Positions 1,618 through 34,734 of a stretch of DNA of 64,000 bases are shown here, piece by piece (position 1 is the first letter of the stretch; the number at the start of each line of letters is the position of its first letter). Source of the stretch: Bathymodiolus brooksi (taxonomy: Eukaryota; Mollusca; Bivalvia; Mytilida; Modiolidae); NCBI GenBank assembly GCA_963680875.1, contig OY804578.1:99477689-99541688 (forward strand). Reading direction: 5' to 3'. The notes below the pieces were generated by a model, which made no database searches, was not told the DNA's origin, and saw nothing but the letters and a program-made list of their open reading frames with translations. Position numbers and translations under genes: made by a program.

Positions 1618-1625
1618 AGTTTAAG

Positions 1626-2095
1626 GAGAAAAATAAAAATTTGTTGCGACTAAAGCTTAAATCAGCGTTAAAAATTGAACAAATATCAGTGGTTTTGTAA
1701 ATGAGATTTATTCTAAATAGAAAATCTGAGTTTATTATTTATTAATTTATTATTAATGATACAATTTCAAATCCCTTGGGAGGGGGAGGGGGGCTATGAT
1801 GAAAATTTGAAATAAAAACACAGAACCGGACTTTAAGCAAAAATAATAATCCAGGATTATTTTTTTATTAAAAAATCCCGGATTCCTGTGTCCACGATTT
1901 TTTTTTTTTTAAAGTTAATAATATGAAATATTGACATTCACACTTGCCTTTTGGACAGCACATTTCTGTGTCTACACTTGTTATTAGTAAAAAATAAAAT
2001 AAGTTTTTTCGTCAAATGGTTATGGGGGTCCACCAAAAAAAATTAAGAGTAAAAGTGGACCATGGGGGAAAAAAGGTTGAGAACTGCTGTGTTAA
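1626..2095. other. intergenic, with a possible hAT terminus at 2075-2089
   Basis: AT-rich sequence with no gene. At 2075-2089, GGTTGAGAACTGCTG read on the other strand (CAGCAGTTCTCAACC) resembles the ends of Charlie-type hAT elements. The opposite end was not found, so this may be a solo remnant. Confidence 0.3.
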
Positions 2096-2510
2096 ATGAT
2101 GTTTAGATTTAATTACATGATGTTGACTGTAATGACTGCCCTGTCTGTTCTCTTTTTTTTTTTATCAAGTTTGACTATTTCATCATGTGACCTGTGTAAG
2201 ACAGTGTTGGGTGGGTTGGGGCTTTGGGTAATATATAATAGCTTCGAGTTTGTTGCAGACGCAGTGTACATGTACATGTCTGACCTAATATAACGTAATA
2301 TTTTAACTAAGGTATTCCGCTATATTTCCTGAGCATGTATGCCTGACTGCCTGTGTAGGCCTACCGGATCTACCTCCTTCAGGGCCCAAGTAAGGAGCCT
2401 CATAACTTAACGAAGACAGGGCCGTATTTACTCTAAATCCGGCACTGTGCAAACCCTTCCAGAGCAGATAAGTTTTTAGTGGGCTTCGTTTGCTTGATCT
2501 TTTTCTGTGT
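2096..2510. other. no recognisable gene
   Basis: Contains short open frames on both strands with no recognisable domain or splice context. Somewhat more GC-rich at 2330-2480, but nothing there can be named. Confidence 0.4.
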
Positions 2511-2640
2511 AGTTCTTTGTATATCATTGTTTGTCCTTAACATTGTTATTTTCTTTTTTGCCATCGTTTGATTGTATTGTCTGTCCTTCTTCTATTGACG
2601 GCTTCTGATTACCCATTTAGTATCTTCAAACTTTTCTTAT
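2511..2640 (+). repeat. dispersed repeat equal to the uninterrupted target of the giant array
   Basis: This stretch is homologous to 8986-9029 joined to 26532-26611. Shared landmarks in order are TTTGTATATCATTGTTTGTCC (left flank), GCCAT, TTGTCTG-TCCTTCTTC, GATTnCnnnTTnGTATCTTCAAA. It is therefore a copy of the sequence into which the large element at 9029-26531 inserted. Similar sequence is, from general knowledge, abundant in bivalve genomes and transcripts. Confidence 0.6.
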
Positions 2641-3505
2641 GGTGATTATTAACCATGGGTCAGTTTCAAGTGACATTTACAGATTTGAAAATATGAAATG
2701 TATTTTGGAGAATATATTCCGAATCTGCAGGATTTTCCGCCAATGGTTTAGAATTCAGAATAAAAGATACAATAAGGGTAATAACAAAATTACCGAACTC
2801 CGAACAATCTAACAAAGAGAAAATAAAAACTCATAAGTATATAAACAGACAAAATCAATCAACAATCGGAAAACTGTGAAAACCGCAATGACCCTGACTT
2901 GGTACAGGCATTTCTAAAGAAATGGTCGGTTGAATCAGATTTTAAAGCGCCAAACCTCCCAATTTCATTACGGCTCAAATGATCTTAAATTTTCTTCCAG
3001 TTTGACCAAGACAGCAAGCACCTGAGTCACTTAGTCAGTGGGTGTGATTCATGTTGCAGGCAGTGATCTGACAACATCGTTTTTGCGCTGGAACAGATAG
3101 TATTATTTTGGCCTAATCTTAATTTATTTATTTGTAATATATAAATATAGTATTCTACCACACTTTTACAGAAATACTTCATTTAATTCTGCTTTTAATT
3201 CGTTGATGGAAAAATGGTCAAAATCAGACATCAATCGACTTTGAACAGGATAATACATGTAGGTTGAAAATTTGTAGAACAAATGAAATGCCGGTTTTGG
3301 TCAATCAAGTACGACTCCAGTAGAGGGTACCAGTCACAATTTCCTTTACTCTGATTTACTCCGTCATCGGTTCTATTATTGATATTTTTTGCAAGACATT
3401 TCGGAGAGAGTTTTTAAGTAATATGTAAGCTGGTTAGTTATTTTATTTTCAGAATTTCAATGGGGGTAATAATTTCTATATTGACAGGTTCCCCCATAGA
3501 TCACT
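2641..3505. other. no recognisable feature
   Basis: AT-rich, stops in all frames, no repeat recognised elsewhere in the window. It borders the left end of the hAT element. Confidence 0.45.
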
Positions 3506-4968
3506 CATACATGCCAACCCTTATTGTTCCAAAAGCGGTAGGGGGGTAAATTTTTGTTGACGAACAGATGGAAAATGGTGCACTCTGAGTCTGAGAGCAT
3601 TTGGGGTTGAAAAACTACCATACAGTTTCTGTAATTTTATCAATATATGTCTGTAGTTATTGTTTTGTTTCTCGGTGACGTACTTTCCTTTGTCTACGTT
3701 TTTTTTAATTGATACCTCGGTTTTCATAATAAAAAAAAACTCAATATGTGTACATTTTATATCAACTTAATTTTTTTATTAATTGAAAAGGATAATTCAA
3801 ACATCAATATTTAACTGTCAAATTAATTCATGTTTAATGATTGAGAGCTTCATATGTTGCCGATTTGGCTCTTTTAAGAACGTCATTTGATGGATTCCAT
3901 TCGTGGCATTCTGTCTTTTTAAACACATTGATTTTAGTGGTAAGAAGTCCACAGAGAGTGTTCCTAATACCGTGTACATCGCTGTATACACTGGTAGCTG
4001 CATGGCCCTCTTTACCTCTACCCAGCTGACTCCTCATGTCGGTGGTAAGTTTTTTTACCATACTGAAGAGGGTCTCACAGTATGCATTACTGTGCGGAAT
4101 GAGAACGACATGCTTAGCTAATCTACATAATGTAGGATACATCAGATTTTGAGTAGCTGGGTCCTTAAGCTTTTGCATTGATGACCAAAATAGGTTGATA
4201 CGGTCACCAATCTCATAACTAGGGATTAACGTGGATTCCATTGATTGGTACTCACAAAATTCAGCACACAATGCCTCCCTACTCTCAGGTTAAATAATTT
4301 GTTCAGGGAGTGCAGAGATGAGTTCAAGCAACGATTGCTGGGATACTGTTTTCCTGTTTAAAGGGTCTATCAAAACAGCATGTTTAATGATAGCATCATT
4401 CAGTGGGAATTTTTTTTTAATGTACGTCAGACAACCAACATAGAACGATCTCACCTCTTTCCTAAATATTGACACTCCGCTAGTACCCTCCATGTTGTTT
4501 TTCTGTATGCACTGCATAGCAGCAAACCCTATGAAAAGTTCCTTATCCGATTTTTGGATTTCAGAATTTTCCAAGTCCACAGCCAAACAATCATCAACTA
4601 TTGCAGTGGGTAATACCAGACATGACAGTAGCTTCTGTGAAAAATTAGACACAGAGAGTGTGATTAAATGTGTAATTATTGTAGGAGTTCAATTTTGAAT
4701 AGCTAATAAATTGTGAAAGTTAGGAAGGTACACTATTACATTAAAGGAATGTGAATTTTCCTATGAAACTGTTTATTGAAAATATCTACGAGAAACATCA
4801 ATACCTTTTACCTTGTTTATTAATACCAAATCTCTAAGAAATGAACTTATTTTTTATTATATGATATTTCCAACTTAACCGCATACATACGGTTTATGCA
4901 ACAGTGTATTCATTTTTTTCTTAAGCAATCATTATAGTATGACATGCCTTAATCGATCATTGGCAAGA

Positions 4969-5118
4969 AAAATGAAGAGATATGGAGTAATTGTACATGA
5001 GACAAAATCCCAATTAATGCATGGTAAAAAGCAATGAAACAACGCTTTTATTGTTGTTCTTCATCTTGAAGTCACCATGAATCCTTCAACAATGAGCAAT
5101 TTCTCATACCTCATAGTA
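4969..5118 (+). repeat. ~150-bp repeat in transposase intron 3
   Basis: Shares long identical runs with 5783-5932 in intron 2, for example AACGCTTTTATTGTTGTTC and TTCATCTTGAAG, in the same orientation. The two copies are roughly 85% alike by eye. They flank exon 3 as direct repeats. Confidence 0.7.
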
Positions 5119-5782
5119 AGTTCAAGACGGTTCTAGCACCGGCTTAAGCAGAATTCATTGCTAGATGTCGATCAATGCTACATTCTCATGCATCCTTCCT
5201 TTTTATTGACCACGGGTGCGGGATTGTCAACAAACATAAAAATTACTGGCAAAGTATTCTTACAAACAAGCATGTCAGTATGACTCGTACATTACATCAA
5301 ACATACCCTGTATAGTTTTAACATCGATGGGTGTAAGATGTGTATCAGCGGTTCCTCACTTTGTAGAAGTGTGTTGAAACTATCAAAGTATGGCATGACA
5401 GCATGGAGAAAATGGATATACAGTTGTGTGCTGGGTTCTGTAAAAACCTTTAAAAGTCTCTGTTCTCTAGGTCCACCCTTTTGTTTAGACTTTTGAGTGG
5501 AACAAGACCTATAAACGGATTATGAAGACTGCAATATTTTGAAGAAATGAAAATCATATATCAAGCTAGTATGCTTTATATGTTCATGTTGTTAGTTTGT
5601 TTAATGATGTTTAACACTGTTTTCAAGGTTTATGTTTGTCGGGCAATTACAGCAGAGACAGTGTAATATACTATGAAAGTCAACTTCTCTTTAAAGCTAA
5701 CATTTTAAACAATTTCTGAATCTCATCACCGTCAATAAAGTTTTTTTTCGTTACATCAAATATATCAACTTACTAGAACAAA

Positions 5783-5932
5783 TGAAAGGATACCGGTATG
5801 GGGTAAATGTACATGAGAGAAAATCACAATCAATACAGGGAAATACAAAGCAATGGAACAACGCTTTTATTGTTGTTCTTCATCTTGAAGTTACCATGAG
5901 GCCTTCAACAAAAAGCAAAGTGCTCATACTAG
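5783..5932 (+). repeat. ~150-bp repeat in transposase intron 2
   Basis: Partner of the copy at 4969-5118. Together they bracket exon 3 (5307-5508), so the exon sits between direct repeats about 810 bp apart. Confidence 0.7.
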
Positions 5933-7988
5933 TTTTATGGCAATATAATAAATTACATGATTTCACTTTATTGAGTTACCTTTTCCGCTTTGACTCATCC
6001 TCATCCTCAACATCATAATGGGACAAAAAATAAGATCTTAGGCCTTCCCATAAATTCAGGACTCTCTCTAGACATTTATGAAGGCTAAGCCACCTAGCTG
6101 AAACGTGCTTCAAAACTTTTCTAACTTCTGTGTTGCAAAACACTAGATAGTCACGTAGTTCTTGTTTTCTCTTTGCACTGAAAATTTTAATTATATACAA
6201 ATACTTTTTGGGCTCAGACTTATTAACAATAAATGGTTAGGTACTATATCAAGCAGTAATATTTAGACTATATATCAATCCAATAAACACAATGAGGTGC
6301 AACTTGTAATATCATGTTATATTCATTGTTTCAAAATTTATTAAAAAAAAATTATTGTAAACTATTGCTCTAAAATATTTTTTCAGTTGTCTGCCATGAA
6401 ATTTAAATTGCCAAGTAAAACCAAATGTTTTTTAAACCTTCTTTATAAAGTATCAAGTTGTTTTTTATTTCAAAAGATAACTAGACAAAGTTTTATTCAT
6501 TTAAAGTGACTCGTCCTGAGATTTTATGTTATTTATCAATTTAAACTTCATGCTTTGATTGAAGAACATATATGGGATTAAGAAAAAAAATTACCTCTTT
6601 TCAAAGTGATAGTAAATATCAATAATAAAATCCTCTGGGTTGAAATGTTTGAGAGCCTTACTACCATGCTTCGCCGCTAAGGCAGACAGATGACATGCAC
6701 AACCTATTCCATAAATTTGTGGATTTTCTTGATGAAGCAAACCAAGTACGCCTTTATGTCTTCCGGTCATTACAGAGGCATTGTCCGTGGAGAAGGACAA
6801 ACACTGTTGAAGATCTAGACCAACATCTCCAAGCGATATTTTCATAGCAGTAGTAATGTTTTCACCGGTTGCCATATTTACAACAGGCATATCTATGAAC
6901 GAAGTTGTCACAAGTCCTGTATGAACATCCTCGTGTGTGATAATAATAGGGAAAAACTTGTCTTCTTCATCGCTACTACCGTCTGTTGCTAAAGAATCCA
7001 TTAATCTGCCAGCAACAACATCCCTCTTAATTGTTTCAATAGAATCAGCAGCAATAGCATATATTATATGCGTTGATTTTGTTCTAGCACACGAATATTG
7101 TTTAGCAATTTCACTGTCCGGAAACATACGCCTGGTTAGTTTAGAAAAATGGTCATTGATGGCAAGTGGCAAGTTATGTTCAGTAACAAAACCTTGGAAT
7201 ACTGTTTCTGCATGAATAACGGACTGTGCTATACTTCTTTTGCTACTACCAGGGGCGAACATTGATAGAGACTGAGATGTTTCTACATCTTTAGCATTTG
7301 ATTTATGTTTGTCTGTGCTTATGAAGTTATGTGCCTCGTAACATCACCTAAACCTGCATGACTTATGGAAAAGTCAGATCTACACAGTTCACAAAAACAG
7401 TGTTTTACACCCTTTCTAGATGCTTTTATGAATGGATAAGATGATGTCCATGACTTTTTAAAAGAGTTGTCATACCGCGGCGTTGTTTTTTTCTTTTCTG
7501 GTGTATTAGACATGATTTCATTCATTTGAAGTTCAAAATTTAGCGCATCTACAACTTTTTCAAATAACAGAGAAAAGAACGTTTTCATTGGTTTAACTAC
7601 TTCACATTTAACCAATGGAAATAACTCTTACAAAGTTTGTCATATATGCATCGTAATTGACAGACGAAGGCAAGTTGGAGACCAGTTTTAAATGGGACTT
7701 CATGTTTATTTTTAGGTCGGCAAAAATATTTTTTACAGATTGTCATGATTTTTAATGTATAATTTTTATAGCAGTAATATTTTACAAAAGCGGTAGAATA
7801 TTATTCAAAATCGGTAGGCGGTAGAACATATTAAAAATCGGTAGTCTACCGCGTAAATCGGTAGGGTTGGCAAGTATGGATCACTTAAAAATACACTTCT
7901 ACCTTTCGATACTAATTAAACCTTGAACACCAGATAACAAAAGGGATACGGATTAATATAAGTATAACCACTTGTTTCCGAATCCTAT

Positions 7989-8985: not shown

Positions 8986-9028
8986 ATGTATGTTTTGTAG
9001 ATCGTTGTTTGTCCTTTTGTACTTTTTA

Positions 9029-12000
9029 GTTCACCTGGACCAAAGGTCCATGTGAACTATTGCCATCACTTGGCGTCCGTCGTCTGTCGTCTGTAAACTT
9101 TTCACATTTCAAGCTTCTTCTCCGAAACCACTTGGCCGATTGGAACCGAACTTAGCAGGAATATTCCTTGGATGGTCCTCTACAAAGTTACCGTTTTTCG
9201 TTCCAGTCGGATATTCAATATGGCTGCCAGGGCCAATAATATGCTCTGATTGGCTGAAATTTCAAAGATCTTCTTCTCCGAAACTAATGAACTGACTGAA
9301 CCCAAACTGTAAAGGAATGATCATTGGAATGTCCTTTACCAAGTTACTGTTTTTTATGCCGATCGGAAATCCAAGATGGCCGCCATCGCAGGACATAGAT
9401 TAACATTGGACCCTATGGGAAAATGTTCAAATGCCTTCTTCTCAGAAACTACAAATATGATTAAAGCCAAACTGTACATGAATGTTCATTGGATGGTCCT
9501 CTACAATCGTAAGGTTTTTTGTTCCGATATGAAATTCAAAATGGCGGCTACGGCAGGACTTAGTTTAACATTGGACCCTATGGGAAAAATGTTTCAAAAT
9601 GCTTCTTCTCTGAAACCACTTGGACAGTTGAAACCAAACTGCCCAGGAATGATCATTGGAAGGTCCTCTACAAATTTTATGTTTTTTATGCCAGTCGGAA
9701 ATCCAAGATGGCCGCCACCGCAGGACATAGATTAACAATGGACCCTATGGGAAAATGTTCAAATGCCTTCTTCTCAGAAACTACAAATATTATTAAAGCC
9801 AAACTGTACATGAATGTTCATTGGATGGTCCTCTACAATCTTAAGGTTTTTTGTTCCGATATGAAATTCAAAATGGCGGCTACGGCAGGACTTAGTTTAA
9901 CATTGGACCCTATGGGAAAAATGTTTCAAAATGCTTCTTCTCTGAAACCACTTGGACAGTTGAAACCAAACTGCCCAGGAATGATCATTGGAAGGTCCTC
10001 TACAAATTTTCTGTTTTTTATGCCGGTCGGAAATCCAAGATGGCCGCCACCGCAGGACATAGATTAACATTGGACCCTATGGGAAAATATTCAAATGCCT
10101 TCTACTCAGAAACTACAAATATGATTAAAGCCAAACTGTACATGAATGTTCATTCGATGGTCCTCTACAAACTTTACGTTTTTTGTTCCGGTATGAAATT
10201 CAAAATGGCGGCTACGGCAGGACTTAGTTTAACATTGAACCCTATGGGAAAAATGTTTCAAAACGCTTCTTCTCTGAAACCACTTGGATAATTGAAACCA
10301 AACTGCCTAGGAATGATCATTGGAAGGTCCTCTAGAAATTTTATGTTTTTTATGCCGATCGGAAATCCAAGATGGCCGCCACCGCAATACATAGATTAAC
10401 ATTGGACCCTATGGGAAAATGTTCAAATGCCTTCTTCTCAGAAACTACAAATATTATTAAAGCCAAACTGTACATGAATGTTCATTGGATGGTCCTCTAC
10501 AATCTTAAGGTTTTTTGTTCCGATATGAAATTCAAAATGGCGGCTACGGCAGAACTTAGTTTAACATTGGACCCTATGGGGAAAATGTTTCAAAATGCTT
10601 CTTCTCTGAAACCACTTGGACAGTTGAAACCAAACTGCCCAGGAATGATCATTGGAAGGTCCTCTACAAATTTTCCGTTTTTTATGCCGATCGGAAATCC
10701 AAGATGGCCGCCACGCAGGACATAGATTAACATTGGACCCTATGGGAAAATATTCAAATGCCTTCTACTCAGAAACTACAAATATGATTAAAGCCAAACT
10801 GTACATGAATGTTCATTAGATGGTCCTCTACAAACTTTACGTTTTTTGTTTTGGTATGAAATTCAAAATGGCGGCTACGGCAGGACTTAGTTTAACATTG
10901 GACCCTATGGGAAAAATGTTTCAAAATGCTTCTTCTCTGAAACCACTTGGACAGTTGAAACCAAACTGCCCAGGAATGATCATTGGAAGGTCCTCTACAA
11001 ATTTTCTGCTTTTTTATGCCGATCGGAAATCCAAGATGGCCGCCACCGCAGGACAGATTAACATTGGACCCTATGGGAAAATATTCAAATGCCTTCTACT
11101 CAGAAACTACAAATATGATTAAAGCCAAACTGTACATGAATGTTCATTAGATGGTCCTCTACAAACTTTACGTTTTTTGTTCTGGTATGAAATTCAAAAT
11201 GGCGGCTACGGCAGGACTTAGTTTAACATTGGACCCTATGGGAAAAATGTTTCAAAACGCTTCTTCTCTGAAACCACTTGGATAATTGAAACCAAACTGC
11301 CTAGGAATGATCATTGGAAGGTCCTCTACAAATTTTCTGTTTTTTATGCCGGTCGGAAATCCAAGATGGCCGCCACCGCAGGACATAGATTAACATTGGA
11401 CCCTATGGGGAAATATTCAAATGCCTTCTACTCAGAAACTACAAATATGATTAAAGCCAAACTGTACATGAATGTTCATTAGATGGTCCTCTACAAACTT
11501 TACGTTTTTTGTTCCGGTATGAAATTCAAAATGGCGGCTACGGCAGGACTTAGTTTAACATTGAACCCTATGGGAAAAATGTTTCAAAACGCTTCTTCTC
11601 TGAAACCACTTGGATAATTGAAACCAAACTGCCTAGGAATGATCATTGGAAGGTCCTCTAGAAATTTATGTTTTTTATGCCGATCGGAAATCCAAGATGG
11701 CCGCCACCGCAATACATAGATTAACATTGGACCCTATGGGAAAATGTTCAAATGCCTTCTTCTCAGAAACTACAAATATTATTAAAGCCAAACTGTACAT
11801 GAATGTTCATTGGATGGTCCTCTACAATCTTAAGGTTTTTTGTTCCGATATGAAATTCAAAATGGCGGCTACGGCAGAACTTAGTTTAACATTGGACCCT
11901 ATGGGGAAAATGTTTCAAAATGCTTCTTCTCTGAAACCACTTGGACAGTTGAAACCAAACTGCCCAGGAATGATCATTGGAAGGTCCTCTACAAATTTTC

Positions 12001-15000
12001 CGTTTTTTATGCCGATCGGAAATCCAAGATGGCCGCCACGCAGGACATAGATTAACATTGGACCCTATGGGAAAATATTCAAATGCCTTCTACTCAGAAA
12101 CTACAAATATGATTAAAGCCAAACTGTACATGAATGTTCATTAGATGGTCCTCTACAAACTTTACGTTTTTTGTTCTGGTATGAAATTCAAAATGGCGGC
12201 TACGGCAGGACTTAGTTTAACATTGGACCCTATGGGAAAAATGTTTCAAAATGCTTCTTCTCTGAAACCACTTGGACAGTTGAAACCAAACTGCCCAGGA
12301 ATGATCATTGGAAGGTCCTCTACAAATTTTCTGCTTTTTTATGCCGATCGGAAATCCAAGATGGCCGCCACCGCAGGACAGATTAACATTGGACCCTATG
12401 GGAAAATATTCAAATGCCTTCTACTCAGAAACTACAAATATGATTAAAGCCAAACTGTACATGAATGTTCATTAGATGGTCCTCTACAAACTTTACGTTT
12501 TTTGTTCTGGTATGAAATTCAAAATGGCGGCTACGGCAGGACTTAGTTTAACATTGGACCCTATGGGAAAAATGTTTCAAAACGCTTCTTCTCTGAAACC
12601 ACTTGGATAATTGAAACCAAACTGCCTAGGAATGATCATTGGAAGGTCCTCTACAAATTTTATGTTTTTTATGCCGATCGGAAATCCAAGATGGCCACCA
12701 CCGCAATACATAGATTAACATTGGACCCTATGGGAAAATGTTCAAATGCCTTCTTCTCAGAAACTACAAATATGATTAAAGCCAAACTGTACAAGAATGT
12801 TCATTAGATGGTCCTCTACAAACTTTACGTTTTTTGTTCTGGTATGAAATTCAAAATGGCGGCTACGGCAGGACTTAGTTTAACATTGGACCCTATGGGG
12901 AAAATGTTTCAAAATGCTTCTTCTCTGAAACCACTTGGACAGTTGAAACTAAACTGCCCAGGAATGATCATTGGAAGGTCCTCTACAAATTTTCTGTTTT
13001 TTATGTTGGTCGGAAATCCAAGATGGCCGCCATCGCAGGACATAGATTAACATTGGACCCTATGGGAAAATGTTCAAATGCCTTCTTCTCAGAAACTACA
13101 AATATGATTAAAGCCAAACTGTACATGAATGTTCATTGGATGGTCCTCTACAATCGTAAGGTTTTTTGTTCCGATATGAAATTCAAAATGGCGGCTACGG
13201 CAGGACTTAGTTTAACATTGGACCCTATGGGAAAAATGTTTCAAAATGCTTCTTCTCTGAAACCACTTGGACAGTTGAAACCAAACTGCCCAGGAATGAT
13301 CATTGGAAGGTCCTCTACAAATTTTATGTTTTTTATGCCAGTCGGAAATCCAAGATGGCCGCCACCGCAGGACATAGATTAACATTGGACCCTATGGGAA
13401 AATGTTCAAATGCCTTCTTCTCAGAAACTACAAATATTATTAAAGCCAAACTGTACATGAATGTTCATTGGATGGTCCTCTACAATCTTAAGGTTTTTTG
13501 TTCCGATATGAAATTCAAAATGGCGGCTACGGCAGGACTTAGTTTAACATTGGACCCTATGGGAAAAATGTTTCAAAATGCTTCTTCTCTGAAACCACTT
13601 GGACAGTTGAAACCAAACTGCCCAGGAATGATCATTGGAAGGTCCTCTACAAATTTTCTGTTTTTTATGCCGGTCGGAAATCCAAGATGGCCGCCACCGC
13701 AGGACATAGATTAACATTGGACCCTATGGGAAAATATTCAAATGCCTTCTACTCAGAAACTACAAATATGATTAAAGCCAAACTGTACATGAATGTCCAT
13801 TAGATGGTCCTCTACAAACTTTACGTTTTTTGTTCCGGTACGAAATTCAAAATGGCGGCTACGGCAGGACTTAGTTTAACATTGAACCCTATGGGAAAAA
13901 TGTTTCAAAACGCTTCTTCTCTGAAACCACTTGGATAATTGAAACCAAACTGCCTAGGAATGATCATTGGAAGGTCCTCTAGAAATTTTATGTTTTTTAT
14001 GCCGATCGGAAATCCAAGATGGCCGCCACCGCAATACATAGATTAACATTGGACCCTATGGGAAAATGTTCAAATGCCTTCTTCTCAGAAACTACAAATA
14101 TTATTAAAGCCAAACTGTACATGAATGTTCATTGGATGGTCCTCTACAATCTTAAGGTTTTTTGTTCCGATATGAAATTCAAAATGGCGGCTACGGCAGA
14201 ACTTAGTTTAACATTGGACCCTATGGGGAAAATGTTTCAAAATGCTTCTTCTCTGAAACCACTTGGACAGTTGAAACCAAACTGCCCAGGAATGATCATT
14301 GGAAGGTCCTCTACAAATTTTCCGTTTTTTATGCCGATCGGAAATCCAAGATGGCCGCCACGCAGGACATAGATTAACATTGGACCCTATGGGAAAATAT
14401 TCAAATGCCTTCTACTCAGAAACTACAAATATGATTAAAGCCAAACTGTACATGAATGTTCATTAGATGGTCCTCTACAAACTTTACGTTTTTTGTTCTG
14501 GTATGAAATTCAAAATGGCGGCTACGGCAGGACTTAGTTTAACATTGGACCCTATGGGAAAAATGTTTCAAAATGCTTCTTCTCTGAAACCACTTGGACA
14601 GTTGAAACCAAACTGCCCAGGAATGATCATTGGAAGGTCCTCTACAAATTTTCTGCTTTTTTATGCCGATCGGAAATCCAAGATGGCCGCCACCGCAGGA
14701 CAGATTAACATTGGACCCTATGGGAAAATATTCAAATGCCTTCTACTCAGAAACTACAAATATGATTAAAGCCAAACTGTACATGAATGTTCATTAGATG
14801 GTCCTCTACAAACTTTACGTTTTTTGTTCTGGTATGAAATTCAAAATGGCGGCTACGGCAGGACTTAGTTTAACATTGGACCCTATGGGAAAAATGTTTC
14901 AAAACGCTTCTTCTCTGAAACCACTTGGATAATTGAAACCAAACTGCCTAGGAATGATCATTGGAAGGTCCTCTACAAATTTTATGTTTTTTATGCCGAT

Positions 15001-18000
15001 CGGAAATCCAAGATGGCCACCACCGCAATACATAGATTAACATTGGACCCTATGGGAAAATGTTCAAATGCCTTCTTCTCAGAAACTACAAATATGATTA
15101 AAGCCAAACTGTACAAGAATGTTCATTAGATGGTCCTCTACAAACTTTACGTTTTTTGTTCTGGTATGAAATTCAAAATGGCGGCTACGGCAGGACTTAG
15201 TTTAACATTGGACCCTATGGGGAAAATGTTTCAAAATGCTTCTTCTCTGAAACCACTTGGACAGTTGAAACTAAACTGCCCAGGAATGATCATTGGAAGG
15301 TCCTCTACAAATTTTCTGTTTTTTATGTTGGTCGGAAATCCAAGATGGCCGCCATCGCAGGACATAGATTAACATTGGACCCTATGGGAAAATGTTCAAA
15401 TGCCTTCTTCTCAGAAACTACAAATATGATTAAAGCCAAACTGTACATGAATGTTCATTGGATGGTCCTCTACAATCGTAAGGTTTTTTGTTCGGATATG
15501 AAATTCAAAATGGCGGCTACGGCAGGACTTAGTTTAACATTGGACCCTATGGGAAAAATGTTTCAAAATGCTTCTTCTCTGAAACCACTTGGACAGTTGA
15601 AACCAAACTGCCCAGGAATGATCATTGGAAGGTCCTCTACAAATTTTATGTTTTTTATGCCAGTCGGAAATCCAAGATGGCCGCCACCGCAGGACATAGA
15701 TTAACAATGGACCCTATGGGAAAATGTTCAAATGCCTTCTTCTCAGAAACTACAAATATTATTAAAGCCAAACTGTACATGAATGTTCATTGGATGGTCC
15801 TCTACAATCTTAAGGTTTTTTGTTCCGATATGAAATTCAAAATGGCGGCTACGGCAGGACTTAGTTTAACATTGGACCCTATGGGAAAAATGTTTCAAAA
15901 TGCTTCTTCTCTGAAACCACTTGGACAGTTGAAACCAAACTGCCCAGGAATGATCATTGGAAGGTCCTCTACAAATTTTCTGTTTTTTATGCCGGTCGGA
16001 AATCCAAGATGGCCGCCACCGCAGGACATAGATTAACATTGGACCCTATGGGAAAATATTCAAATGCCTTCTACTCAGAAACTACAAATATGATTAAAGC
16101 CAAACTGTACATGAATGTTCATTCGATGGTCCTCTACAAACTTTACGTTTTTTGTTCCGGTATGAAATTCAAAATGGCGGCTACGGCAGGACTTAGTTTA
16201 ACATTGAACCCTATGGGAAAAATGTTTCAAAACGCTTCTTCTCTGAAACCACTTGGATAATTGAAACCAAACTGCCTAGGAATGATCATTGGAAGGTCCT
16301 CTAGAAATTTTATGTTTTTTATGCCGATCGGAAATCCAAGATGGCCGCCACCGCAATACATAGATTAACATTGGACCCTATGGGAAAATGTTCAAATGCC
16401 TTCTTCTCAGAAACTACAAATATTATTAAAGCCAAACTGTACATGAATGTTCATTGGATGGTCCTCTACAATCTTAAGGTTTTTTGTTCCGATATGAAAT
16501 TCAAAATGGCGGCTACGGCAGAACTTAGTTTAACATTGGACCCTATGGGGAAAATGTTTCAAAATGCTTCTTCTCTGAAACCACTTGGACAGTTGAAACC
16601 AAACTGCCCAGGAATGATCATTGGAAGGTCCTCTACAAATTTTCCGTTTTTTATGCCGATCGGAAATCCAAGATGGCCGCCACGCAGGACATAGATTAAC
16701 ATTGGACCCTATGGGAAAATATTCAAATGCCTTCTACTCAGAAACTACAAATATGATTAAAGCCAAACTGTACATGAATGTTCATTAGATGGTCCTCTAC
16801 AAACTTTACGTTTTTTGTTCTGGTATGAAATTCAAAATGGCGGCTACGGCAGGACTTAGTTTAACATTGGACCCTATGGGAAAAATGTTTCAAAATGCTT
16901 CTTCTCTGAAACCACTTGGACAGTTGAAACCAAACTGCCCAGGAATGATCATTGGAAGGTCCTCTACAAATTTTCTGCTTTTTTATGCCGATCGGAAATC
17001 CAAGATGGCCGCCACCGCAGGACAGATTAACATTGGACCCTATGGGAAAATATTCAAATGCCTTCTACTCAGAAACTACAAATATGATTAAAGCCAAACT
17101 GTACATGAATGTTCATTAGATGGTCCTCTACAAACTTTACGTTTTTTGTTCTGGTATGAAATTCAAAATGGCGGCTACGGCAGGACTTAGTTTAACATTG
17201 GACCCTATGGGAAAAATGTTTCAAAACGCTTCTTCTCTGAAACCACTTGGATAATTGAAACCAAACTGCCTAGGAATGATCATTGGAAGGTCCTCTACAA
17301 ATTTTCTGTTTTTTATGCCGGTCGGAAATCCAAGATGGCCGCCACCGCAGGACATAGATTAACATTGGACCCTATGGGGAAATATTCAAATGCCTTCTAC
17401 TCAGAAACTACAAATATGATTAAAGCCAAACTGTACATGAATGTTCATTAGATGGTCCTCTACAAACTTTACGTTTTTTGTTCCGGTATGAAATTCAAAA
17501 TGGCGGCTACGGCAGGACTTAGTTTAACATTGAACCCTATGGGAAAAATGTTTCAAAACGCTTCTTCTCTGAAACCACTTGGATAATTGAAACCAAACTG
17601 CCTAGGAATGATCATTGGAAGGTCCTCTAGAAATTTATGTTTTTTATGCCGATCGGAAATCCAAGATGGCCGCCACCGCAATACATAGATTAACATTGGA
17701 CCCTATGGGAAAATGTTCAAATGCCTTCTTCTCAGAAACTACAAATATTATTAAAGCCAAACTGTACATGAATGTTCATTGGATGGTCCTCTACAATCTT
17801 AAGGTTTTTTGTTCCGATATGAAATTCAAAATGGCGGCTACGGCAGAACTTAGTTTAACATTGGACCCTATGGGGAAAATGTTTCAAAATGCTTCTTCTC
17901 TGAAACCACTTGGACAGTTGAAACCAAACTGCCCAGGAATGATCATTGGAAGGTCCTCTACAAATTTTCCGTTTTTTATGCCGATCGGAAATCCAAGATG

Positions 18001-21000
18001 GCCGCCACGCAGGACATAGATTAACATTGGACCCTATGGGAAAATATTCAAATGCCTTCTACTCAGAAACTACAAATATGATTAAAGCCAAACTGTACAT
18101 GAATGTTCATTAGATGGTCCTCTACAAACTTTACGTTTTTTGTTCTGGTATGAAATTCAAAATGGCGGCTACGGCAGGACTTAGTTTAACATTGGACCCT
18201 ATGGGAAAAATGTTTCAAAACGCTTCTTCTCTGAAACCACTTGGATAATTGAAACCAAACTGCCTAGGAATGATCATTGGAAGGTCCTCTACAAATTTTC
18301 TGTTTTTTATGCCGGTCGGAAATCCAAGATGGCCGCCACCGCAGGACATAGATTAACATTGGACCCTATGGGGAAATATTCAAATGCCTTCTACTCAGAA
18401 ACTACAAATATGATTAAAGCCAAACTGTACATGAATGTTCATTAGATGGTCCTCTACAAACTTTACGTTTTTTGTTCCGGTATGAAATTCAAAATGGCGG
18501 CTACGGCAGGACTTAGTTTAACATTGAACCCTATGGGAAAAATGTTTCAAAACGCTTCTTCTCTGAAACCACTTGGATAATTGAAACCAAACTGCCTAGG
18601 AATGATCATTGGAAGGTCCTCTAGAAATTTATGTTTTTTATGCCGATCGGAAATCCAAGATGGCCGCCACCGCAATACATAGATTAACATTGGACCCTAT
18701 GGGAAAATGTTCAAATGCCTTCTTCTCAGAAACTACAAATATTATTAAAGCCAAACTGTACATGAATGTTCATTGGATGGTCCTCTACAATCTTAAGGTT
18801 TTTTGTTCCGATATGAAATTCAAAATGGCGGCTACGGCAGAACTTAGTTTAACATTGGACCCTATGGGGAAAATGTTTCAAAATGCTTCTTCTCTGAAAC
18901 CACTTGGACAGTTGAAACCAAACTGCCCAGGAATGATCATTGGAAGGTCCTCTACAAATTTTCCGTTTTTTATGCCGATCGGAAATCCAAGATGGCCGCC
19001 ACGCAGGACATAGATTAACATTGGACCCTATGGGAAAATATTCAAATGCCTTCTACTCAGAAACTACAAATATGATTAAAGCCAAACTGTACATGAATGT
19101 TCATTAGATGGTCCTCTACAAACTTTACGTTTTTTGTTCTGGTATGAAATTCAAAATGGCGGCTACGGCAGGACTTAGTTTAACATTGGACCCTATGGGA
19201 AAAATGTTTCAAAATGCTTCTTCTCTGAAACCACTTGGACAGTTGAAACCAAACTGCCCAGGAATGATCATTGGAAGGTCCTCTACAAATTTTCTGCTTT
19301 TTTATGCCGATCGGAAATCCAAGATGGCCGCCACCGCAGGACAGATTAACATTGGACCCTATGGGAAAATATTCAAATGCCTTCTACTCAGAAACTACAA
19401 ATATGATTAAAGCCAAACTGTACATGAATGTTCATTAGATGGTCCTCTACAAACTTTACGTTTTTTGTTCTGGTATGAAATTCAAAATGGCGGCTACGGC
19501 AGGACTTAGTTTAACATTGGACCCTATGGGAAAAATGTTTCAAAACGCTTCTTCTCTGAAACCACTTGGATAATTGAAACCAAACTGCCTAGGAATGATC
19601 ATTGGAAGGTCCTCTACAAATTTTATGTTTTTTATGCCGATCGGAAATCCAAGATGGCCACCACCGCAATACATAGATTAACATTGGACCCTATGGGAAA
19701 ATGTTCAAATGCCTTCTTCTCAGAAACTACAAATATGATTAAAGCCAAACTGTACAAGAATGTTCATTAGATGGTCCTCTACAAACTTTACGTTTTTTGT
19801 TCTGGTATGAAATTCAAAATGGCGGCTACGGCAGGACTTAGTTTAACATTGGACCCTATGGGGAAAATGTTTCAAAATGCTTCTTCTCTGAAACCACTTG
19901 GACAGTTGAAACTAAACTGCCCAGGAATGATCATTGGAAGGTCCTCTACAAATTTTCTGTTTTTTATGTTGGTCGGAAATCCAAGATGGCCGCCATCGCA
20001 GGACATAGATTAACATTGGACCCTATGGGAAAATGTTCAAATGCCTTCTTCTCAGAAACTACAAATATGATTAAAGCCAAACTGTACATGAATGTTCATT
20101 GGATGGTCCTCTACAATCGTAAGGTTTTTTGTTCCGATATGAAATTCAAAATGGCGGCTACGGCAGGACTTAGTTTAACATTGGACCCTATGGGAAAAAT
20201 GTTTCAAAATGCTTCTTCTCTGAAACCACTTGGACAGTTGAAACCAAACTGCCCAGGAATGATCATTGGAAGGTCCTCTACAAATTTTATGTTTTTTATG
20301 CCAGTCGGAAATCCAAGATGGCCGCCACCGCAGGACATAGATTAACATTGGACCCTATGGGAAAATGTTCAAATGCCTTCTTCTCAGAAACTACAAATAT
20401 TATTAAAGCCAAACTGTACATGAATGTTCATTGGATGGTCCTCTACAATCTTAAGGTTTTTTGTTCCGATATGAAATTCAAAATGGCGGCTACGGCAGGA
20501 CTTAGTTTAACATTGGACCCTATGGGAAAAATGTTTCAAAATGCTTCTTCTCTGAAACCACTTGGACAGTTGAAACCAAACTGCCCAGGAATGATCATTG
20601 GAAGGTCCTCTACAAATTTTCTGTTTTTTATGCCGGTCGGAAATCCAAGATGGCCGCCACCGCAGGACATAGATTAACATTGGACCCTATGGGAAAATAT
20701 TCAAATGCCTTCTACTCAGAAACTACAAATATGATTAAAGCCAAACTGTACATGAATGTTCATTAGATGGTCCTCTACAAACTTTACGTTTTTTGTTCCG
20801 GTACGAAATTCAAAATGGCGGCTACGGCAGGACTTAGTTTAACATTGAACCCTATGGGAAAAATGTTTCAAAACGCTTCTTCTCTGAAACCACTTGGATA
20901 ATTGAAACCAAACTGCCTAGGAATGATCATTGGAAGGTCCTCTAGAAATTTTATGTTTTTTATGCCGATCGGAAATCCAAGATGGCCGCCACCGCAATAC

Positions 21001-24000
21001 ATAGATTAACATTGGACCCTATGGGAAAATGTTCAAATGCCTTCTTCTCAGAAACTACAAATATTATTAAAGCCAAACTGTACATGAATGTTCATTGGAT
21101 GGTCCTCTACAATCTTAAGGTTTTTTGTTCCGATATGAAATTCAAAATGGCGGCTACGGCAGAACTTAGTTTAACATTGGACCCTATGGGGAAAATGTTT
21201 CAAAATGCTTCTTCTCTGAAACCACTTGGACAGTTGAAACCAAACTGCCCAGGAATGATCATTGGAAGGTTCTCTACAAATTTTCCGTTTTTTATGCCGA
21301 TCGGAAATCCAAGATGGCCGCCACGCAGGACATAGATTAACATTGGACCCTATGGGAAAATATTCAAATGCCTTCTACTCAGAAACTACAAATATGATTA
21401 AAGCCAAACTGTACATGAATGTTCATTAGATGGTCCTCTACAAACTTTACGTTTTTTGTTCTGGTATGAAATTCAAAATGGCGGCTACGGCAGGACTTAG
21501 TTTAACATTGGACCCTATGGGAAAAATGTTTCAAAATGCTTCTTCTCTGAAACCACTTGGACAGTTGAAACCAAACTGCCCAGGAATGATCATTGGAAGG
21601 TCCTCTACAAATTTAAGGTTTTTTATGCCGGTCGGAAATCCAAGATGGCCGCCACCGCAGGACATAGATTAACATTGGACCCTATGGGAAAATATTCAAA
21701 TGCCTTCTACTCAGAAACTACAAATATGATTAAAGCCAAACTGTACATGAATGTTCATTCGATGGTCCTCTACAAACTTTACGTTTTTTGTTCTGGTATG
21801 AAATTCAAAATGGCGGCTACGGCAGGACTTAGTTTAACATTGGACCCTATGGGAAAAATGTTTCAAAACGCTTCTTCTCTGAAACCACTTGGATAATTGA
21901 AACCAAACTGCCTAGGAATGATCATTGGAAGGTCCTCTACAAATTTTATGTTTTTTATGCCAATCGGAAATCCAAGATGGCCACCACCGCAATACATAGA
22001 TTAACATTGGACCCTATGGGAAAATGTTCAAATGCCTTCTTCTCAGAAACTACAAATATGATTAAAGCCAAACTGTACATGAATGTTCATTTGATGGTCC
22101 TCTACAATCTTAAGGTTTTTTGTTCCGATATGAAATTCAAAATGGCGGCTACGGCAGGACTTAATTTAACATTGGACCCTATGGGAAAAATGTTTCAAAA
22201 TGCTTCTTCTCTGAAACCACTTGGACAGTTGAAACCAAACTGCCCAGGAATGATCATTGGAAGGTCCTCTACAAATTTTCTGCTTTTTTATGCCGATCGG
22301 AAATCCAAGATGGCCGCCACCGCAGGACATAGATTAACATTGGACCCTATGGGAAAATATTCAAATGCCTTCTACTCAGAAACTACAAATATGATTAAAG
22401 CCAAACTGTACATGAATGTTCATTAGATGGTCCTCTACAAACTTTACGTTTTTTGTTCTGGTATGAAATTCAAAATGGCGGCTACGGCAGGACTTAGTTT
22501 AACATTGGACCCTATGGGAAAAATGTTTCAAAACGCTTCTTCTCTGAAACCACTTGGATAATTGAAACCAAACTGCCTAGGAATGATCATTGGAAGGTCC
22601 TCTACAAATTTTATGTTTTTTATGCCGATCGGAAATCCAAGATGGCCACCACCGCAATACATAGATTAACATTGGACCCTATGGGAAAATGTTCAAATGC
22701 CTTCTTCTCAGAAACTACAAATATGATTAAAGCCAAACTGTACATGAATGTTCATTAGATGGTCCTCTACAAACTTTACGTTTTTTGTTCTGGTATGAAA
22801 TTCAAAATGGCGGCTACGGCAGGACTTAGTTTAACATTGGACCCTATGGGGAAAATGTTTCAAAATGCTTCTTCTCTGAAACCACTTGGACAGTTGAAAC
22901 TAAACTGCCCAGGAATGATCATTGGAAGGTCCTCTACAAATTTTCTGTTTTTTATGTTGGTCGGAAATCCAAGATGGCCGCCACCGCAGGACATAGATTA
23001 ACATTGGACCCTATGGGAAAATATTCAAATGCCTTCTACTCAGAAACTACAAATATGATTAAAGCCAAACTGTACATGAATGTTCATTGGATGATTCTCT
23101 ACAAACAATACGTTTTTTGTTCCGATATGAAATTCAAAATGGCGGCTACGGCAGGACTTAGTTTAACATTGGACCCTATGGGAAAAATGTTTCAAAATGC
23201 TTCTTCTCTGAAACCACTTGGACAGTTGAAACCAAACTGCCCAGGAATGATCATTGGAAGGTCCTCTACAAAGTTTATGTTTTTTATGCCGGTCGGAAAT
23301 CCAAGATGGCCACCACCGCAGGACATAGATTAACATTGGACCCTATGGGAAAATGTTCAAATGCCTTCTTCTCAGAAACTACAAATATGATTAAAGCCAA
23401 ACTGTACATGAATGTTCATTGGATGATCCTCTACAAACTTTGCGTTTTTTGTTCCGATATAAAATTCAAAATGGCGGCTACGGCAGGACTTAGTTTAACA
23501 TTGGACCCTATGGGAAAAATGTTTCAAAACGCTTCTTCTCTGAAACCACTTGGATAATTGAAACCAAACTGCCCAGGAATGATCATTGGAAGGTCCTCTA
23601 CAAGGTGTGTGTTTTTTATGCCGGTCGGAAATCCAAGATGGCCACCACCGCAGGACATAGATTAACATTGGACCCTATGGGAAAATGTTCAAATGCCTTC
23701 TTCTCAGAAACTACAAATATGATTAAAGCCAAACTGTACATGAATGTTCATTGGATGGTCCTCTACAAACTTTGCGTTTTTTGTTCCGATATAAAATTCA
23801 AAATGGCGGCTACGGCAGGACTTAGTTTAACATTGGACCCTATGGGAAAAATGTTTCAAAACGCTTCTTCTCTGAAACCACTTGGATAATTGAAACCAAA
23901 CTGCCCAGGAATGATCATTGGAAGGTCCTCTACAAGGTGTGTGTTTTTTATGCCGGTCGGAAATCCAAGATGGCCACCACCGCAGGACATAGATTAACAT

Positions 24001-26531
24001 TGGACCCTATGGGAAAATGTTCAAATGCCTTCTTCTCAGAAACTACAAATATGATTAAAGCCAAACTGTACATGAATGTTCATTGGATGGTCCTCTACAA
24101 ACTTTGCGTTTTTTGTTCCGATATAAAATTCAAAATGGCGGCTACGGCAGGACTTAGTTTAACATTGGACCCTATGGGAAAAATGTTTCAAAACGCTTCT
24201 TCTCTGAAACCACTTGGATAATTGAAACCAAACTGCCCAGGAATGATCATTGGAAGGTCCTCTACAAGGTGTGTGTTTTTTATGCCGATCGGAAATCCAA
24301 GATGGCCACCACCGCAGGACATAAATTAACATTGGACCCTATGGGAAAATATTCAAATGCCTTCTTCTCAGAAACTACAAATATGATTAAAGCCAAACTG
24401 TACATGAATGTTCATTGGATGGTCCTCTACAAACTTTGCGTTTTTTGTTCCGATATAAAATTCAAAATGGCGGCTACGGCAGGACTTAGTTTAACATTGG
24501 ACCCTATGGGAAAAATGTTTCAAAACGCTTCTTCTCTGAAACCACTTGGATAATTGAAACCAAACTGGCCAGGAATGATCATTGGAAGGTCCTCTACAAG
24601 GTGTGTGTTTTTTATGCCGGTCGGAAATCCAAGATGGCCACCACCGCAGGACATAGATTAACATTGGACCCTATGGGAAAATGTTCAAATGCCTTCTTCT
24701 CAGAAACTACAAATATGATTAAAGCCAAACTGTACATGAATGTTCATTGGATGGTCCTCTACAAATTTTGCGTTTTTTGTTCCGATATGAAATTCAAAAT
24801 GGCGGCTACGGCAGGACTTAGTTTAACATTGGACCCTATGGGAAAAATGTTTCAAAACGCTTCTTCTCTGAAACCACTTGGATAATTGAAACCAAACTGC
24901 CCAGGAATGATCATTGGAAGGTCCTCTACAAGGTGTGTGTTTTTTATGCCGATCGGAAATCCAAGATGGCCACCACCGCAGGACATAAATTAACATTGGA
25001 CCCTATGGGAAAATATTCAAATGCCTTCTTCTCAGAAACTACAAATATGATTAAAGCCAAACTGTACAAGAATGTTCATTGGATGGTCCTCTACTAACTG
25101 TACGTTTTTTGTTCCGATATGAAATTCAAAATGGCGGCTACGGCAGGACTTAGTTTAACATTGGACCCTATGGGGGAAATGTTTGAAAACGCTTCTTCTC
25201 TGAAACCACTAGAACAGTTGAAACCAAACTGCCCAGGAATGATCATTGGAAGGTCCTCTACAAATTTTATGTTTTTTATGCCGATCGGAAATCCAAGATG
25301 GCCGCCACCACAATACATAGATTAACATTGGACCCTATGGGAAAATGTTCAAATGCCTTCTTCTCAGAAACTACAAATATTATTAAAGCCAAACTGTACA
25401 TGAATGTTCATTGGATGGTCCTCTACAATCTTAAGGTTTTTTGTTCCGATATGAAATTCAAAATGGCGGCTACGGCAGGACTTAGTTTAACATTGGACCC
25501 TATGGGAAAAATGTTTCAAAACGCTTCTTCTCTGAAACCACTTGGACAATTGAATCCAAACTGCCCAGGAATGATCATTGGAAGGTCCTCTACAAAGTTT
25601 CTGTTTTTTTATGCCGATCGAAAATTCAAGATGGCCACCACCGCAGGACATAGATTAACATTGGACCCTATGGGAAATTGTTCAAATGCCTTCTTCTCAG
25701 AAACTACAAATATGATTAAAGCCAAACTGTCCATATGTGTGTACATTGGATGGTCCTCTACAAACTTTACGTTTTTTGTTCCGATATGAAATTCAAAATG
25801 GCGGCTACGGCAGGACTTAGTTTAACATTGGACCCTATGGGAAAAATGTTTCAAAACGCTTCTTCTCTGAAACCACTTGGATAATTGAAACCAAACTGCC
25901 CAGGAATGATCATTGGAAGGTCCTCTACAAGGTGTGTGTTTTTTATGCCGATCGGAAATCCAAGATGGCCACCACCGCAGGACATAGATTAACATTGGAC
26001 CCTATGGGAAAATGTTCAAATGCCTTCTTCTCAGAAACTACAAATATGATTAAAGCCAAACTGTGCATAAATGTTCATTGAATGGTCCTCTACAAAATAT
26101 ACGTTTTTTATTCTGATATGAAATTCAAAATGGCGGCTACGGCAGGACTTAGTTTAACATTGGACCCTATGGGAAAAATGTTTCAAAATGCTTCTTCTCT
26201 GAAACCACTTGGACAGTTGAAACCAAACTGCCCAGGAATGATCATTGGAAGGTCCTGTTTTTTATGCCGATCGGAAATCCAAGATGGCTGCCACCACAGG
26301 TCATAGTATTAACACAGAACCATATGGGGAAAATACAGAAATATATTCTTCTCTGAAGCTATTGCACTGATTGAACCTAAACTGTGCATCAATCATTGGA
26401 AGGTCCTTTACAAACTTTGTGTTTTTTATGTTGATCGTAATTCCAAGATGACGCAGGACATAGTTTTTACATAGGACCAATTGGTTTTTTTTATTACCAG
26501 GTGAACGATACAGGCTCTTGAGAGCCTCTGG
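9029..26531 (+). mobile_element. giant Helitron-like (pearl/HINE-type) element with amplified tandem core
   Basis: The 5' end is a hairpin: AGTTCAC(C)TGGACC, AAA loop, GGTCCA(T)GTGAACT (9028-9058). The 3' end is a hairpin AGGCTCT / AGAGCCT (26512-26527) followed by CTGG, fitting the hairpin-plus-CTRR terminus of Helitrons. Between them lies the tandem array. The flanks 8986-9029 and 26532-26611 form one continuous repeat at 2511-2640, so the whole 17.5 kb behaves as one insertion. No Rep/helicase gene is present. A small relative with only about five core units is at 44312-45301. Confidence 0.75.
9370..26300 (+). repeat. 332-bp dimeric satellite-like array (~51 dimers)
   Basis: The period is 332 bp, made of two related ~166-bp monomers. 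Monomer A carries CCAAGATGGCCGCCACCGCA and ATTCAAATGCC or GTTCAAATGCC. Monomer B carries TTCAAAATGGCGGCTACGGC and TTGGACAGTTGAAACC or TTGGATAATTGAAACC. Variant units recur in the same order at offsets of 994, 2322, 5969 and 6963 bp, showing higher-order duplication. Edge monomers (9100-9370 and 26300-26480) are the most diverged. Open frames of 80-163 codons recur once per dimer, but the period is not a multiple of three and I treat them as non-coding. Confidence 0.95.
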
Positions 26532-27290: not shown

Positions 27291-27760
27291 ATTACCAATA
27301 TTACACAAGCAAATGTTCATTAATCATTGTATTGAAATTTAATTTATATTATATTGATATAGTAAATTTTCATGAAAATGATGTCTTCCTATTATTGATG
27401 GACCATAGTTTTTTTTAACACTCAATAAAAAATCTGTAAAATTATCAAATTGTGTAATATTTGCAATAAAATAAATCTGTTAGTATATAAATGGTACATG
27501 TGTAACATTGTCTCCTGAGAAAATTCCATAGTGCAGGTATTATTAATTCCTGATTGCTTGAAAATTTGTTAATTTTACAGGGAAATGAACTTCATTGAAT
27601 AAATTTATTCTGAAAAATTATTACATATGAAATGAATTAAAAGAGTCCAGTATCTAAGTTCCTTTTATAAAAAGAATGGTTGAAAAACACCACAAATTTG
27701 TGCCAGGACCTGGATACCCAATTTGCAACTCAATCTGTTGTGGTCCTTTTCGTGTTTGTT
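27291..27760. other. no recognisable feature
   Basis: AT-rich, no gene or repeat recognised. Confidence 0.4.
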
Positions 27761-27763
27761 GGT

Positions 27764-28135
27764 TTGAGGTGAGAGCTGGTTGTTTGGTTTGAGGTGAAAA
27801 GTGGTTGTTTGGTTTGAGGTGAGAGATGGTTGTTTGGTTTGAGGTGAGAGGTGGTTGTTTGGTTTGAGGTGAGAGGTGGTTGTTTGGTTTGAGGTGAGAG
27901 GTGGTTGTTTGGTTTGAGGTGAGAGATGGTTGTTTGGTTTGAGGTGAGAGATGGTTGTTTGGTTTGAGGTGAGAGGTGGTAGTTTGGTTTGAGGTGAGAG
28001 GTGGTTGTTTGGTTTGAAGTGAGAGATGATTGTTTGGTTTGAGGTGAGAGGTGGTTGTTTGGTTTGAGGTGAGAGGTGGTTGTTTGGTTTGAGGTGAGAG
28101 GTGGTTGTTTGGTTTGAGGTGAGAGATGGTTGTTC
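27764..28135 (+). repeat. 25-bp minisatellite, ~15 units
   Basis: Unit GGTTTGAGGTGAGAGGTGG plus TTGTTT, 25 bp, with GAT/GGT variants. On the - strand it is open in more than one frame because 25 is not divisible by three, giving a 25-residue Thr/Gln/Asn-rich repeat peptide. I regard that as non-coding. It runs directly into GGAATTGTTGACCATCACTG, a phrase shared with the 30-bp minisatellite locus at 61335. Confidence 0.9.
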
Positions 28136-30978: not shown

Positions 30979-31810
30979 TCATGATTTTGAATTGTGAATA
31001 TAGATTAGATGTCATGAATTGTGAATATTTATGTCATGAATTGTGAATATTGATGTCATGAGTTGTGAATTTTAATGTCATGATTTGTGAATATTATTGT
31101 CATGAATTGTGAATTTTAATGTCATGATTTGTGAATATTATTGTCATGAATTGTAAATATTGATGTCATGAGTTGTGAATTTTGATATCATGAATTATGA
31201 ATATTGATGTCATGAATTGTGAATATCAATGTCATGATTTATGAATATTGATGTCATGAATTATGAATATTGATGTCATGAATTGTGAATATTGATGTCA
31301 TGAATTATTTTGAATTTTGATGTCATGAATTGTGAATATTGATGTCATGAATTGTGAATTTTGTTGTCATGAATTGTGAATATTGATGTCATGAATTGTG
31401 AATATTGATGTCATGATTTATGAATTTTGATGTCATCAATTGTGACTATTGATGTCATCAATTGTGACTATTGATGTGATGAAGTGTGAATATTGATGTC
31501 ATGAATTGTGAATATTGATCATGATGTCATGATTTGTGAATATTGATGTCATGAATTGTGAATATTAATGTCATGAATTGTGAATATTAATGTCATGAAT
31601 TGTGAATATTGAATATTGATGTCATGAATTGTGAATATTGATGTCATGCATTGTGAATTTTGATATCATGAATTGTGAATATTGAATATTGATGTCATGA
31701 ATTGTGAATATTGATGTCATGCATTGTGAATTTTGATATCATGAATTGTAAATATTGATATCATGAATTGTGAATATTTATGTCCTGAATTTTGAATATT
31801 TATGTTATGA
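30979..31810 (+). repeat. 22-bp AT-rich minisatellite in Dok intron 1
   Basis: About 35-38 degenerate units of GATGTCATGAATTGTGAAT plus ATT (22 bp). Variants include GATTT and ACTATT units, and a few longer or shorter units. It ends only 30 bp before exon 2. No open frame of note. Confidence 0.9.
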
Positions 31811-31840
31811 TTTGCCGATTAATTTTAACCCTTTTTTCAG

Positions 31841-34688: not shown

Positions 34689-34734
34689 GTAGGTACAAGT
34701 ATTTCTATAATTTTTTATCCCCTCGCCAACGAAG

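Follow-up and report, generated by a model that had tools for sequence, protein, structure and literature searches.

A 332-bp dimer array of about 102 monomers in Bathymodiolus brooksi

The stretch of mussel DNA analysed here (64 kb of Bathymodiolus brooksi, contig OY804578.1 of assembly GCA_963680875.1, positions 99,477,689 to 99,541,688 of the forward strand; hereafter the window) contains a central tandem array at positions 9260 to 26256 (+), which looks like the centre of a non-autonomous Helentron transposon of the HINE/pearl type. The array is about 17 kb long and comprises about 102 monomers of approximately 166 bp, and TRF assigns it a period of 332 bp with 51.2 copies and 95% matches, equivalent to 102.5 monomers. 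When the array is cut at a conserved motif, 102 anchors delimit 101 monomers, 44 of which are distinct. Specifically, two monomer types, A (about 165 bp) and B (about 167 bp), whose consensus sequences are 78% identical, alternate strictly throughout (101 of 101 monomers) and together form the 332-bp dimer. Fifty dimers, numbered 0 to 49, lie in the array, 28 of them distinct, with a mean dimer-to-dimer distance of 14.5 edits. Diverged repeats adjoin both edges: a monomer-like piece on the left flank at 9107-9259 (+), of which 9107-9229 is 78.6% identical to a B monomer, and decayed monomers on the right at 26257-26466 (+), of which 26319-26466 is 73% identical to a B monomer.

Most monomers carry one copy of the motif ATGGC[CG]GC (89 copies in the array and, counting both strands, one elsewhere in the window), which resembles the YY1/Pho core and may be a binding site. 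Open frames of 120-200 aa through the array track the repeat, and no RNA genes at Rfam gathering thresholds and no tRNA were found.

Dimer distances divide the array into two parts. In a young zone formed by dimers 0-35 (9405 to approximately 21341), all 36 dimers have another dimer at most one edit away, whereas in the older right part, dimers 36-49 (21342-26256, +), only 3 of 14 have another dimer that close. The mean nearest-dimer distance is 0.14 edits, and then 4.5, 1.6 and 12.0 edits across three further stretches. Dimers 42-46 (23335-24994) represent a local single-dimer expansion within the older part.

Kilobase blocks of dimers are duplicated in phase

A preliminary description of this DNA had proposed that unit variants recur in the same order at four fixed offsets over 9370 to 26300. 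All four diagonals are present in a gapless comparison: the +994 repeat of 17120-18113 is perfect (0 of 994 positions differ), the +2322 repeat of 11697-13340 differs at 1 of 1644 positions (C at 13172, G at 15494), and the +6963 repeat of 11120-14650 differs at 2 of 3531. The +5969 repeat begins at 9363 rather than at about 9300 (15 of 2941 positions differ over 9300-12240, 13 of them before 9363 and 2 after), and a T/C difference placed at 10853/16822 exists but lies at 10851/16820. The block pattern itself holds for dimers 0-35, to approximately 21341, and stops short of 26300. As also described, the offsets 994, 2322, 5969 and 6963 fall close to multiples of the dimer, being 2.99, 6.99, 17.98 and 20.97 times 332.

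Self-comparison gives gapless diagonals, the five longest at offsets 6963, 5969, 4641, 2322 and 994. The maximal gapless diagonals extend over 3597 bp at offset 6963 (11055-14651 versus 18018-21614, 2 mismatches), 2889 bp at offset 5969 (9363-12251 versus 15332-18220, 2 mismatches), 2132 bp at offset 2322 (11665-13796 versus 13987-16118, 2 mismatches) and 1197 bp at offset 994 (17024-18220 versus 18018-19214, no mismatches), and none of the 21 gapless diagonals that reach 600 bp has an offset more than 14 bp away from a whole multiple of 332. With up to 2 edits allowed per dimer, the longest stretch of collinear dimers is 10, beginning at dimer 5 at offset 21. When the order of the 50 dimers was shuffled 2000 times, the longest collinear run was 5 and no shuffle reached 7 or 10, so the collinearity of the blocks is not due to chance.

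Once one copy of the 994-bp duplication is omitted, the 5969 and 6963 diagonals become a single gapless block of 5289 bp with four substitutions. Block copy 1 occupies 9363-14651 (+) and differs, at the 18-dimer offset, from copy 2 at 4 of 5289 positions; copy 2 occupies 15332-21614 (+) and contains the 994-bp (3-dimer) tandem duplication at 17024-19214 (+), which is perfect over 1197 bp. Between the two copies lies 14652-15331 (+), a remnant of a 7-dimer (2322-bp) duplication as judged by comparison with its upstream copy and with the sequence that follows copy 2. In particular, 14048-15331 is identical (1284 of 1284) to 11726-13009, 2322 bp upstream, whereas 14652-15331 differs from the sequence after copy 2 by 23 edits in 680 (3.4%) in a gapped comparison. 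At each of the four block differences a single dimer carries the odd base, among 21, 18, 22 and 35 scorable dimers of the 50. As singletons, they look like mutations that arose since the duplication and not like a mosaic of older variants. The blocks are recent and real in this assembly.

The array appears to be framed by the ends of a HINE/pearl-type Helentron

The earlier reading of the sequence had overlooked the transposon ends of the array. At the left, 9027-9059 (+) forms a putative 5' end, in which the subterminal inverted repeat (subTIR) GTTCACCTGG (9029-9038) and a complementary inner arm (9045-9057) make a near-perfect hairpin with one internal mismatch (DNA fold z -6.44; 0 of 200 shuffles as good). 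It is followed by a short GTC-type microsatellite at 9075-9093 (+) and then by the array. To the right, a 3' subTIR, CCAGGTGAAC, at 26497-26506 (+) is the exact 10-bp complement of 9029-9038, and this terminal repeat has no further exact copy in the 64 kb on either strand. A palindrome, AGGCTC-TTGA-GAGCCT, at 26512-26527 (+) lies near the 3' end of the element; the fold of this end (z -2.28; 5 of 200 shuffles as good) is weaker than that of a second element in the window.

This second, homologous element (44304-45303, +; ends approximate) has a left end that over 100 bp is 83% identical to that of the first, a 156-bp repeat present 5.5 times and, on its 3' side, AGGTGAGCGACACAGGCTC followed by a palindrome (3' end fold z -3.14; 0 of 200 shuffles as good), so that its parts lie in the same order as those of the first. 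T runs are seen at the 5' edges of the elements. HINEs have been defined previously (PMC4067079). Of the features of this class, a 5' subTIR with complementary inverted repeat, and a matching 3' subTIR followed by a 3' palindrome, are both present in the first element, and a microsatellite and central repeats in fixed orientation to the ends are present in both. Additionally, copies in different flanks are seen at a few loci, namely a near-identical left end in a related contig described below and the diverged relative in the window.

Relatives occur in two contigs binned as symbiont DNA

One exact pattern scan of a GTDB-based collection returned two contigs, JACCHT010000015.1 (L001) and JACCHT010000004.1 (L002), both from a metagenome-assembled genome of the Bathymodiolus septemdierum symbiont, Candidatus Thiodubiliella endoseptemdiera. 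We infer that their content is host mussel DNA. The mussel-type satellite and Helentron-like DNA in them is probably host contamination of a public symbiont genome. By this likeness the window would probably belong to a bathymodioline mussel or a near relative. Viral contigs gave no match to a 21-base monomer pattern.

In L001 the left end of the first element recurs, near-identical inside and unlike outside, the internal differences being that the microsatellite is longer and the outer repeat damaged; L001 also holds an element of the second type with degraded ends. The occurrence of this left end in different flanking DNA elsewhere argues for transposition of the family, and, as far as these sequences indicate, the element family is dispersed. 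L002 has neither element end in recognisable form within its 8 kb, and holds at 1179-3785 eight A units at 95.7-100% of the window A consensus (6 of 8 at 97.5% or more) and eight B units at 91.5-96.4% of the window B consensus, in the A/B order seen in the window. By edit distance, with units slightly off register, they lie 6-15 edits from the nearest window A and 5-18 from the nearest B. The remainder of L002 is more diverged, perhaps through poor sequence quality, and was not used for any inference. The preliminary description had taken the 332-bp dimer and its amplification together; since the same dimer occurs in an array at another locus, it is probably dispersed and probably predates the blocks. 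Multi-dimer blocks were seen in the window only.

The array may have grown in place by three unequal exchanges

Taken together, we propose, with a probability of roughly 73%, that the locus is a framed HINE/pearl-type Helentron element whose A/B array grew in place and whose last growth consisted of three unequal-exchange steps. The central array, already made of A/B dimers, would have grown in place to about 102 monomers, and its last growth would have come from unequal exchange, with dimers of sister or homologous arrays paired in phase. A 7-dimer (2322-bp) duplication would have arisen in one allele; an 18-dimer (5969-bp) shift would have followed, most simply by crossover of the duplication-bearing allele with an allele lacking it; and a 3-dimer (994-bp) tandem duplication, probably the youngest event, would have come last. 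The recent amplification of blocks by unequal exchange is supported, and the order and type of the exchanges are inferred. An unbroken A/B alternation and offsets near multiples of 332 would follow if the 78% identity that A and B share is too low for pairing. The four mutations over two 5289-bp copies correspond to 3.8e-4 per site per copy. Rates between 1e-9 and 1e-8 per site per year, which are assumed without a source, would put the age of the blocks at roughly tens to hundreds of thousands of years.

A plain 18-dimer tandem duplication alone is not favoured, the last 680 bp of copy 1 being 23 edits from their counterpart.

Several observations weigh against this proposal, some of them concerning the frame. 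The 10-bp inverted match is equalled in 2.3% of 20,000 random pairs of 100-nt pieces and is therefore weak by itself, so the case for the frame rests on the whole order of parts. The 5' repeats are degraded in the second element and in L001, and neither L001 nor L002 contains the 3' motif at up to 3 substitutions. No empty site was found, and no Rep or helicase appears among the 6 of 44 window open reading frames scanned with Pfam, the one match being a hAT piece. Other observations concern the exchanges. A plain 18-dimer duplication would make 14652-15331 match the sequence following copy 2, yet it differs there by 23 edits in 680, as against 4 of 5289 elsewhere in the block and none against the upstream copy, and the second step thus needs an extra assumption; the gapped nature of this comparison leaves more room for other event orders. 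Dimer 16 is identical to dimer 39, and dimer 17 lies 2 edits from dimer 40, which makes it possible that the right copy of a plain 18-dimer duplication was later rearranged. Conversion would fit as well, as would a larger duplication with a subsequent deletion; the same traces could come from gene conversion or break-induced replication.

Alternatives to growth of a framed element by unequal exchange

That kilobase blocks of a satellite are so nearly identical could point to an assembly artefact, whether a repeat graph was walked twice or two haplotypes were joined in tandem inside the array, and a haplotype join could also yield the singleton and copy-number differences. However, the copies differ by four singleton substitutions and a 994-bp copy-number step, and the blocks do not form one simple loop; we consider such an artefact unlikely, though the assembly is a chief doubt about the blocks. 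The preliminary description had attributed the blocks to unequal exchange or rolling-circle copying in a satellite that is still expanding, the last of which goes further than one assembled allele can show. The former is consistent with the in-phase offsets, the two-copy blocks and the four singleton differences in 5289 bp; the latter is not supported for the blocks. Excision of blocks as circles that are copied and reinserted, or copying during aberrant Helentron rolling-circle replication, would suit a host element of the rolling-circle class, and such a process has been named for oyster arrays (PMC8268682) and Helitrons (PMC12628747). Nevertheless, no block of 2-11 dimers occurs in three full consecutive copies at up to 2 or up to 3 edits per dimer. 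The nearest cases, a 2-dimer block present 2.5 times in dimers 42-46 and a 7-dimer block present 2.3 times from dimer 7 onward, appear at 3 edits only; three consecutive copies are reached solely by a single dimer (dimers 42-44). In addition, the element has a single 5' end and a single 3' end, where many 5' ends are often found under the model of PMC12628747. One-copy reinsertion is indistinguishable from unequal exchange, and this form of rolling-circle copying remains; as a source of the blocks the process is otherwise set aside as unneeded, three exchange-type events being sufficient, and we regard it as improbable.

Least probable of all, in our judgement, is an ordinary satellite array with a transposon fragment at each side, in which the frame is a coincidence. 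Most oyster CgiSat01 arrays that exceed 100 monomers are standalone (PMC8268682), and L002 holds the A/B dimer in 8 kb where neither a left nor a right end is recognisable. Against such a coincidence, both ends of the window array lie in the right order and orientation, the diverged monomers beside each end belong to the repeat family of the array, and the second element shows the same plan.

Other repeats in the window

The 64-kb window is rich in tandem arrays. At 35334-37871, 87 copies of a 29-bp unit (92% matches) are accompanied by one frame that stays open throughout, for 812 codons, and further minisatellites lie at 53083-53677 (43-bp units), 27752-28134 (25 bp), 31008-31814 (22 bp) and 61349-61588 (30 bp). 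Inverted copies (approximately 88%) of a second modular repeat with internal units of 144-151 bp are found at 34708-35097 (+) and 57646-58178 (-); this may be another transposon that carries tandem repeats. A repeat of about 100-270 bp is dispersed over at least eight places (29750, 33645, 34450, 39005, 39945, 43003, 54900 and 59585; pairs approximately 72-88% identical), has relatives in L001 and looks like a SINE or MITE family. A remnant of a hAT-type transposon lies at 3834-7343 (-), with a PF05699 match at 3834-4289; a frame near it, 6591-7343, has no Pfam match of its own; a relative 98% identical to it has 85 member sequences and the domain PF27073.

Discussion

The closest known systems are likened to the B. 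brooksi element by architecture. Cg_HINE elements of Crassostrea gigas, which are non-autonomous Helentrons, share with it, in the same order and orientation, the 5' subTIR, complementary inverted repeat, GTC-type microsatellite, 3' subTIR and 3' palindrome, and likewise have central repeats mostly of 140-180 bp; they favour T-rich sites (PMC7492417). Their longest array has 29.3 monomers, as opposed to about 102 here in an A/B dimer with multi-dimer blocks. The pearl elements of bivalves (CvA, CvE, MgE) and DTC84 are similarly modular with central repeats of about 160 bp (PMC7492417, PMC5139131), the pearl elements being reported with up to six repeats (PMC7492417); decay at array ends has been described along with pearl elements (PMC5139131). 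DINE-1/HINE elements of Drosophila and a mite resemble the present one in subTIRs, 3' palindrome and tandem repeats in some copies; their target is T-rich, and arrays of this size do not appear in the available text of PMC4067079.

CgiSat01 (Cg170/HindIII) arrays of C. gigas are mostly tied to Helitron boxes on one or both sides, the longest having 89 monomers when element-associated (one-box arrays included) and 232 when standalone (PMC8268682), and element association is the dominant form of Cg170/HindIII in six oysters (PMC11136912). The present array is slightly longer than 89 monomers and has both ends. The words "dimer" and "higher-order" are absent from the main text of PMC8268682, and the available text of PMC7754599 and PMC10048060 contains nothing on blocks within Helentrons. 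A literature search of titles and abstract openings returned no multi-dimer blocks within a Helentron, which is not to claim their absence from print. The BIV160/Cg170 superfamily of bivalve satellites is recognised by sequence homology and two conserved motifs; six motif strings had no match in a text search of papers.

The higher-order arrays of human alpha-satellite also show local, layered block duplications by unequal exchange and old monomers at the edge. Unlike the window array, they are centromeric and of megabase size and have no transposon frame. Classical satellite DNA forms very long arrays in heterochromatin, against the one array of 17 kb here.

The array is a new, unusually large and legible case of an already known type of element, and the underlying process is most likely the already known one of unequal exchange; what is uncommon is the place of the blocks within an element and the legibility of the steps. 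Transposition has been suggested to fall as repeats increase (PMC8268682). We put forward only tentatively, and at somewhat less than even odds, that a transposon is here turning into a satellite, with both Helentron ends present, a core beyond the presumed size for mobility, three readable exchanges, one of them between length alleles, and no role for rolling-circle copying.

For bivalves, the question of how short transposon repeats grow into long satellite arrays is open. Models at issue include capture, decay of ends, rolling-circle copying and unequal exchange (PMC12628747, PMC8268682); for repeat growth they include aberrant rolling-circle replication, and many arrays have multiple 5' ends and one 3' end (PMC12628747). 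With a framed array whose growth steps are readable and whose singleton mutations serve as a clock, the alleles of a few individuals could separate these models.

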